Shown here piece after piece: positions 46,311 to 47,398 of a stretch of 64,000 nucleotides of DNA. Every line of letters begins with the position of its first letter. Position 1 is the stretch's first letter. The position numbers were made by a program, and so were the translations under genes. The stretch comes from Amycolatopsis sp. FBCC-B4732 (GTDB lineage Bacteria > Actinomycetota > Actinomycetes > Mycobacteriales > Pseudonocardiaceae): contig NZ_CP095376.1 in the NCBI RefSeq assembly GCF_023008405.1, forward strand, positions 8,846,501 through 8,910,500. The letters run 5' to 3'. Under the pieces are notes generated by a model that worked only from the letters and a program-made list of their open reading frames with translations, was not told where the DNA came from and did not search any database.

Positions 46311-46778
46311 CTAGTCCGCCGCCAGCAGCAGCGCCGTTGCGAAGGCTGCGATGCCCTCGCCGCGGCCCGTCAGGCCCAAGCCGTCCGATGTCGTGCCCGA
46401 GACGCTCACCGGGCCGCCCACCGCCTCCGACAGGACCTTCTGCGCTTCCTCGCGTCGCTTGCCCACCCGAGGGGCGTTGCCGACGATCTGGACCGTCGCG
46501 TTGGCGACGCGCCAGCCCGCGGCCTCGAGCAGGCCCCTGACCTCGGTGAGCATGTCCGCGCCGTGGGCGCCGTCCATGCGGGGGTCGCCCGTGCCGAAGA
46601 CCGCGCCCAGGTCGCCGAGGCCCGCTGCGGACAGCAGGGCGTCGCAGAGCGCGTGGGAGGCGACGTCGCCGTCCGAGTGGCCGGCGCAGCCGTCGGCCTC
46701 CGGCCAGAGCAGCCCGGCCATCCAGCACTCGCGGCCCGGTTCGATCGGGTGGACGTCGACCCCGTTGCCGATCCTCAC
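46311..46778 (-). CDS. ispF: 2-C-methyl-D-erythritol 2,4-cyclodiphosphate synthase
   Basis: 155 residues, full length. Metal ligands are intact: Asp and His in GNGVDVHPIEPG and the His in CAGHSDGDVASHALCDALLS. The hydrophobic cavity and CDP-binding regions are GDLGAVFGTGDPR and SVSGTTSDGLGLTGRGEGIA. It forms MEcPP in the non-mevalonate isoprenoid pathway. It overlaps the upstream ispD gene by 4 bp, so the two are co-translated even though that IspD is degenerate. Confidence 0.94.
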   Translation of the reverse strand: MRIGNGVDVHPIEPGRECWMAGLLWPEADGCAGHSDGDVASHALCDALLSAAGLGDLGAVFGTGDPRMDGAHGADMLTEVRGLLEAAGWRVANATVQIVGNAPRVGKRREEAQKVLSEAVGGPVSVSGTTSDGLGLTGRGEGIAAFATALLLAAD

Positions 46779-47398
46779 AGCGTCTCCTCGTTCTTCGGTG
46801 CCGCCGCGATCGCCTCGGCCAGGGAAAGTTCGAAATCGGTCGTGACGCGCATCGCGTCCGGGTGGCCCGGCACGGTCGCCGCGCCCGGGGGGACCGCCGT
46901 CGTGAAGCCGGCCGCGAGGAACGCGTCGAGCGTGAAGCCGATCGGCGTCTGGGCCGTGCGCAGGCGGGAACGGTCCTCCGTGCCGACGATCAGCGATGCG
47001 TCGTCGGTCACCTTCACCGTGTCGGCCATCGGCAGCACCGGGACGACCACTTCGGCGTCACCGACGGCGTTGATCACGTCACGCACGGTTTGCGCAGGAA
47101 TGAAGGCACGCAGAGCGTCATGGAGGAGTACAACTGAGTCACGGGGAACTTCGGGCTCGACGACGGCGAAGGCCTGCCGGAGCGAGCCGGGGACGACCCG
47201 GCACGAAAGCCCTTCGAGGGCTTCGGAATACGACTTCGCACACCGCTGGGGGGCCGCCACGAGCACCGTAGAAATCTCCGGTACGTCGAGCAGCCCCCGC
47301 ACGGTGTGCGTGAGTAGCGCCTCACCATGGACCGGCGTGAGAGCGAGCTCCCAGTCGGAGGCATGGTGTGCGACGGTCACGATCACGACGACGTTCAT
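46775..47398 (-). CDS. ispD: IspD homologue with degenerate nucleotide-binding loop
   Basis: 207 residues, in the normal carD-ispD-ispF position. Much of the fold is recognisable: VVLLHDALRAFIPAQTVRDV, VVVPVLPMADTVKV (substrate Thr), SRLRTAQTPIGFTLDAFLAA and the C-terminal VTTDFELSLAEAIAA. The N-terminal signature (PAAGxGxR followed by PK), which binds CTP in all active enzymes, is replaced by IVTVAHHASDWELALTPVHG, shorter and without the Gly loop, the Arg or the Lys. The usual C-terminal Lys (FKIT) is Arg here. No in-frame upstream extension supplies the loop. Cytidylyltransferase activity is therefore doubtful. Confidence 0.75.
   Translation of the reverse strand: MNVVVIVTVAHHASDWELALTPVHGEALLTHTVRGLLDVPEISTVLVAAPQRCAKSYSEALEGLSCRVVPGSLRQAFAVVEPEVPRDSVVLLHDALRAFIPAQTVRDVINAVGDAEVVVPVLPMADTVKVTDDASLIVGTEDRSRLRTAQTPIGFTLDAFLAAGFTTAVPPGAATVPGHPDAMRVTTDFELSLAEAIAAAPKNEETL

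Follow-up and report, generated by a model that had tools for sequence, protein, structure and literature searches.

We propose that the ispD gene located between carD and ispF in Amycolatopsis sp. FBCC-B4732 encodes one of two different subunits that together make up the MEP cytidylyltransferase and share a single composite active site, a reading to which we assign a probability of about three in four. The gene, hereafter called the slot gene, lies in a 64,000-nucleotide stretch of this genome, the whole of which is referred to as the window. Its product has lost the residues on the CTP side of the active site and keeps the β-arm, while a second IspD-like protein encoded elsewhere in the genome, IspD2, shows the complementary pattern. 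The two proteins occur together, the slot gene is under purifying selection, CTP-site residues were lost repeatedly from its relatives, and in other families genes for the two types of protein are neighbors. From these observations, we infer that the two proteins form a physical heterodimer, that arm residues are donated in trans within this pair, and that the pair is active.

IspD is an essential enzyme of the MEP pathway and a target for drugs and herbicides. In the structure of the E. coli enzyme, T140 and R157 reach into the active site of the other subunit and not into their own; a description of their exact trans contacts was not found in the open-licence literature consulted. The enzyme is a homodimer whose monomers are linked by the β-arm (residues 137–159), which also accommodates the MEP site; R20 and K27 bind the phosphates of CTP, and R157 and K213 are apparent contacts of MEP (PMC11770629). 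Thr140 binds the ME hydroxyls, and of two mutants at the equivalent position, T141E was inactive and T141D had about a quarter of the activity left (PMC3111433). The active site is constituted by the interface between the IspD monomers (PMC11796317), and most of the dimer interface of B. subtilis IspD comes from a β-meander (PMC5099578). Unless stated otherwise, residue numbers are those of E. coli IspD.

The slot gene (46775..47398, minus strand) encodes a protein of 207 amino acids from an ATG start, which is separated by 44 bp from the stop codon of its upstream neighbor carD (47443..47934, minus strand). The product has the IspD fold, matching PF01128 with 96.7 bits and aligning only from profile position 21 onward, and its AF2 single-chain model has a pLDDT of 92.8. 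Its N-terminus reads MNVVVIVTVAHHASDWELALTPVHGE, and the segment replacing the CTP loop (residues 7–22 of the slot protein, TVAHHASDWELALTPV; 47333..47380, minus strand) contains no equivalent of G16, G18, R20, or K27. The absence of the PAAGxGxR loop and the following PK, as claimed in the original prediction, is thus borne out by reading of the ORF and by the orthologues. The same holds for the exchange of the catalytic Lys near the C-terminus: an alignment of slot proteins places Arg184 (46847..46849, minus strand) at the position of Lys213. The T189–D190 segment, which that prediction had omitted, is also gone. The conserved β-arm (residues 117–156 of the slot protein; 46931..47050, minus strand) carries T127, K129, and R143, corresponding to T140, K142, and R157, in invariant columns. 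With 83.7 bits, the protein stays under the cut-off of 181.3 bits for NCBIfam TIGR00453. The slot gene was also correctly described as overlapping by 4 bp with an intact ispF: its stop overlaps the GTG-initiated ispF (46311..46778, minus strand), whose product scores 154.6 bits against an NCBIfam cut-off of 116.45 bits.

The altered loop is conserved throughout the genus. Slot proteins were read in 62 of 80 congeneric genomes, including that of the window: Lys27 is missing in all 62, Lys213 in 61, and Arg20 in 60, and the slot proteins of G028 and G037 show an Arg aligned at position 20, yet no Gly-rich loop. Among full-length homologues from databases, 118 of 118 likewise lack both Arg20 and Lys27; neither the slot protein nor these relatives possess the Gly-rich CTP loop with the two residues. 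For the home family, that is, the family of the window genome (f1), presumably Pseudonocardiaceae, we scanned 150 genomes from 46 genera with PF01128. Slot proteins from 66 two-copy genomes of this family (including G036, whose second copy was detected but lies outside the 65 genomes discussed below) all keep T140, K142, and R157. At least one of K27, T189, and K213 is lost in 65 of them, and the seven CTP-side residues G16, G18, R20, K27, T189, D190, and K213 are found together in a single protein, that of G130. Position 213 is occupied by Arg in 51/66 and by Lys in 5/66, and the N-terminus differs between lineages. Since R109 (66/66), H105 (65/66), and D106 (58/66) stay as well, the slot protein may have more than an arm role. 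The dN/dS ratio is 0.36 for the slot gene, 0.18 for the IspD2 gene, and 0.08 for ispF; within the slot gene, it is 0.23 in the arm and 0.39 elsewhere. This ratio and the invariant β-arm residues indicate that the slot gene is not dying.

The window genome, a single contig of 10.19 Mb, contains a second IspD with an intact loop, as the original prediction had suggested looking for. This protein, IspD2 (C1:5900611-5901276, 159 bits), has the loop VVLASGAGTRVGAKLNKVYLPLAG and is encoded at 5.90 Mb, far from the slot gene at 8.89 Mb, which counts against a pairing of the two. Its CTP side is complete: G16, G18, R20, K27, T189, D190, and K213 are all present in 87/87 IspD2 proteins of the home family. 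T140 and K142 are found in none of these 87 and R157 in five; position 140 is always I, L, or V, and the residues at 142 and 157 vary widely. IspD2 of the window genome does not reach the equivalog cut-off for ispD of NCBIfam either (172.1 vs. 181.3 bits). The remaining PF01128 matches in this genome are partial and weak (28–39 bits, in frames of 290–499 amino acids). A complete spare IspD elsewhere in the genome was therefore rejected, since IspD2 lacks the arm residues and the other matches are partial. Of the suggestion that the slot copy is inactive and an active IspD is located elsewhere, one part stands, because the slot copy should not bind CTP and a second copy with an intact loop exists; the other part is not supported, as this second copy itself looks incomplete, lacking the β-arm residues. 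Because ispE (present once) and an intact ispF are found in the genome, IspD activity and thus production of CDP-ME is expected.

In G054, a single-contig genome of the genus, IspD2 is spread over two reading frames (L200, G054:C1:8523400-8526900) with a break near codon 133. Both pieces are 92–96% identical to the copy of the window genome, and the slot partner is normal; the split is possibly an assembly indel.

Intact slot IspDs served as reference for the division of residues between the two proteins. In relatives without IspD2, all ten tested residues are kept in 15/15 intact slot IspDs; this set comprises 12 of the 95 family genomes with a single PF01128 match plus G128, G159, and G213, the other single-match genomes being judged by their profile spans. 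The residue table was compiled without L003 and L004, which gave no match, and without L160–L162, the second PF01128 matches of G128, G159, and G213. In a test of the 77 columns that are invariant in the intact set, made with no preselection of residues, a residue was called kept if present in at least 95% and lost if present in less than 30% of the sequences. By these criteria, the slot protein has kept columns 113, 140, 142, 154, 157, 160, and 161, which IspD2 has lost; the opposite holds for columns 16, 18, 20, 22, 27, 167, 189, 190, 196, 213, and 215. The first set falls nearly entirely into the arm hairpin, the second mostly on the CTP side. Retention in the slot protein amounts to 5/7 columns in the arm and 11/70 in the core (Fisher p 0.0035).

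This division suggests a mechanism in which IspD2 would bind CTP through its Rossmann domain, which carries the CTP loop, Lys27, Thr189/Asp190, and Lys213, while the slot protein would close the site and hold MEP with an arm donated in trans, on which Thr140, Lys142, and Arg157 are located. A slot homodimer would not be expected to bind CTP, and an IspD2 homodimer would miss the usual MEP contacts. One complete site would form in a mixed dimer only, and each protein alone would be inactive.

Alternatively, IspD2 could function by itself as a homodimeric IspD in which a MEP site has evolved anew. In that case, the slot protein would be a non-catalytic pseudoenzyme that acts as a regulator or allosteric activator, as a scaffold for IspF, or through translational coupling of ispF via the 4-bp overlap. 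Every tested CTP-side residue is present in IspD2, and its uniformly hydrophobic position 140 could, judged from the alignment, represent a re-evolved pocket; the slot gene overlaps ispF and evolves faster than the IspD2 gene, as would suit a pseudoenzyme. A re-evolved MEP site is difficult to reconcile with the wide variation of the IspD2 residues at 142 and 157, and a coupling function leaves both the invariance of T140, K142, and R157 and the lower dN/dS of the arm unexplained. We therefore regard this alternative as rather unlikely, although it is the strongest competitor of the shared active site. The earlier ideas that the slot protein uses another nucleotide or serves as an IspF scaffold are likewise less economical than a shared active site.

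We then followed the two genes through the home family. A single PF01128 match at E 1e-14 or better is present in 95 of the 150 genomes, and 93 of these 95 matches align from profile position 1–2 (counted by eye). The other two are assembly cases: in G090 (74% complete) only IspD2 is seen, and the sole match in G163, a slot copy of the intact type, is incomplete and lies at the edge of a contig. Seven of the 55 genomes with two matches belong to the genus. Among the remaining 48, the second gene encodes IspD2 in 45, while G128, G159, and G213 combine an intact slot IspD with a more distant second PF01128 homologue that does not resemble IspD2. Every genome in which a loopless slot protein was read also contains a long second PF01128 match (in G054 over two frames), and both proteins were read in 65 genomes of the family. 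A third IspD-like gene was seen in G079 (L005, G079:C10:34187-34849), which has a full loop and both T140 and R157, with His at position 142, Gly in place of His105, and Glu in place of Asp106.

Several genomes show intermediate states. G130 has an intact slot IspD and an IspD2 already without T140 and K142. The slot protein of G221 has the loop, K27, and K213 and lacks T189; those of G206 and G143 have R20 and K27 and lack K213; that of G170 lacks R20 and K27 and has K213; and that of G095 lacks both K27 and K213. In a phylogenetic tree, the slot label requires seven changes, at least four of them forced by the starred branches, and IspD2 and its relatives from outside the family lie on one side of a branch with a support of 93, with G464 just outside. 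The tree was calculated by a quick method with SH-aLRT support only and midpoint rooting, and long branches were flagged. It includes 66 of the 87 IspD2 proteins (21 rows from the genus, chosen as near-copies, were left out), outside IspD2 proteins of at least 190 letters, and outside partners with at least 140 aligned letters (18 rows). From this tree and the intermediates, we conclude that IspD2 has been accompanied on several occasions by decay at the CTP site of the resident protein, whose arm survived in every case read.

An IspD2 of the G130 type might work by itself or act on a different substrate. In a second alternative, IspD2 uses another alcohol phosphate, and MEP activation falls to an unrecognized enzyme or to the slot protein, whose CTP site would then be unusual. 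The missing MEP residues of IspD2 and the presence of both an intact slot IspD and IspD2 in G130 would fit this view. A slot protein without the conserved nucleotide loop, K27, and usually K213, which has lost at least one of K27, T189, and K213 in 65 of 66 cases and whose N-terminus differs between lineages, is a poor candidate for CTP binding, and the partial and weak remaining matches in the window genome do not favor an unrecognized enzyme. This alternative thus appears very improbable. Less credible still is the view that the slot gene is decaying into a pseudogene or was produced by faulty assembly; the lost catalytic residues might point this way, and conservation contradicts it: a sequencing error is ruled out by the absence of Lys27 in all 62 congeners read and all 118 database homologues, and a pseudogene by dN/dS and the invariant arm.

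At a threshold of E 1e-45 or better, the IspD2 profile matched in 59/298 genomes of the order, of which 33 do not belong to the home family (hand count), and in 50/394 genomes of the class, where five matches near E-46 resemble ordinary IspDs by PF01128. The outside genomes that we read number 49: 30 of these 33, plus 19 found by scanning the class, among which G381 belongs to the same order. R20, K27, D190, and K213 are kept in all 49 IspD2-type proteins, T140 in one (G464), K142 in none, and R157 in two (G464 and G491), with alignment gaps in some rows; another alignment also placed Arg at 157 in the protein of G381. In 47 of the 49 genomes, the IspD2-type gene is accompanied by an IspD-like arm partner. 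These partners carry [DE]-[TS]-x-[KR] and a later Arg (Thr at 142 in G496), matches that are partly built in since the detection profiles and the pattern contain the arm. Lys27 is found in none of the partner rows aligned. No partner was found in G491, a fragmentary assembly of 450 contigs with 80% completeness in which IspD2 lies close to the start of a contig, or for the IspD-like gene of G464. The latter keeps T140 and R157, not K142, and may therefore not need a partner.

The partner gene is a tail-to-tail neighbor of the IspD2 gene in 37 genomes, with frame-to-frame gaps from –73 to +412 bp, and coordinates add G243, G249, and G268 to these convergent pairs. This arrangement, found in f3, f5, f8, f9, f16, and other families, involves no overlap with ispF and argues against translational coupling as the function of the partner. 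All five f3 genomes have the partner directly behind carD, as an open frame of 118–181 amino acids (about 116–133 from the first Met), and the IspD2 gene lies in reverse orientation between partner and ispF in the four genomes with ispF on the same stretch; the AF2 model of this short partner has low confidence (pLDDT 67). In f4, an IspD arm copy without Lys27 is fused to IspF in G282 (L232) and G306 (L242); IspD2 is separate from the fusion in both, and G306 has a second ispF as well. Two further genes were noted: a third IspD-like gene beside IspD2 in G507 (L309, G507:C9:22369-23040), in which we saw no CTP loop of the usual kind and no arm motif, and a relative on a Hyphomicrobiales MAG contig (L199), whose identity with the slot protein over residues 22–195 is 36%.

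We also consider it likely, with slightly less confidence than for the window pair, that a two-gene IspD with a composite site is a widespread and unnoticed form of the enzyme in Actinomycetes. A CTP subunit would have entered lineages repeatedly, with the resident CTP site decaying each time to an arm donor, in the extreme case to about 116–133 amino acids with only the arm recognizable. Each resulting dimer would be an obligate heteromer with a single site.

Both proteins share the fold of homodimeric IspD (E. coli 1I52/1INI, M. tuberculosis 2XWN/3Q80), whose arm with T140, K142, and R157 is matched by the slot protein and whose CTP site is matched by IspD2, and the slot gene adjoins ispF as in the intact relatives read. 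In contrast to that enzyme, the functions are here distributed over two polypeptides, neither of which has the full residue set or passes TIGR00453. TarI and human ISPD, the IspD-like enzymes for ribitol-5-phosphate, have the same fold and rank high in the structure comparison; they possess a full CTP loop and are homodimers, and we know of no split form of either. IspD and IspF are also genetically linked in the bifunctional IspDF fusions described for Campylobacter and Helicobacter (PMC11770629), whereas the window has only the 4-bp gene overlap. The trypanosomatid AdoMetDC-prozyme and deoxyhypusine synthase likewise involve a paralogue without catalytic residues that is needed by its partner; as far as described in the sources available, the partners there are activators or form mixed oligomers, whereas here the proposed partner would donate substrate-binding residues and both proteins are incomplete. 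A search of the open-licence literature turned up no description of IspD in heteromeric or split form.

Should the proposal be correct for Amycolatopsis and various other actinobacteria, a CTP-dead subunit is wrongly listed in databases as the enzyme, one-gene engineering of the MEP pathway would fail, and work on inhibitors must consider the heterodimer. Amycolatopsis is the genus of the rifamycin and vancomycin producers. The home family would then also offer a natural series from an intact single IspD via an intact slot IspD with IspD2 to loopless arm donors. With this series, the emergence of an obligate heteromer could be tested stepwise, and the active-site residues can be assigned to a cis or a trans set. 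Elsewhere in the window, two adjacent and mutually similar ORFs of 131 amino acids (45046-45441 and 45452-45847, minus strand) share the motif DGSPQ[TS]SVVW and look like a tandem duplication.
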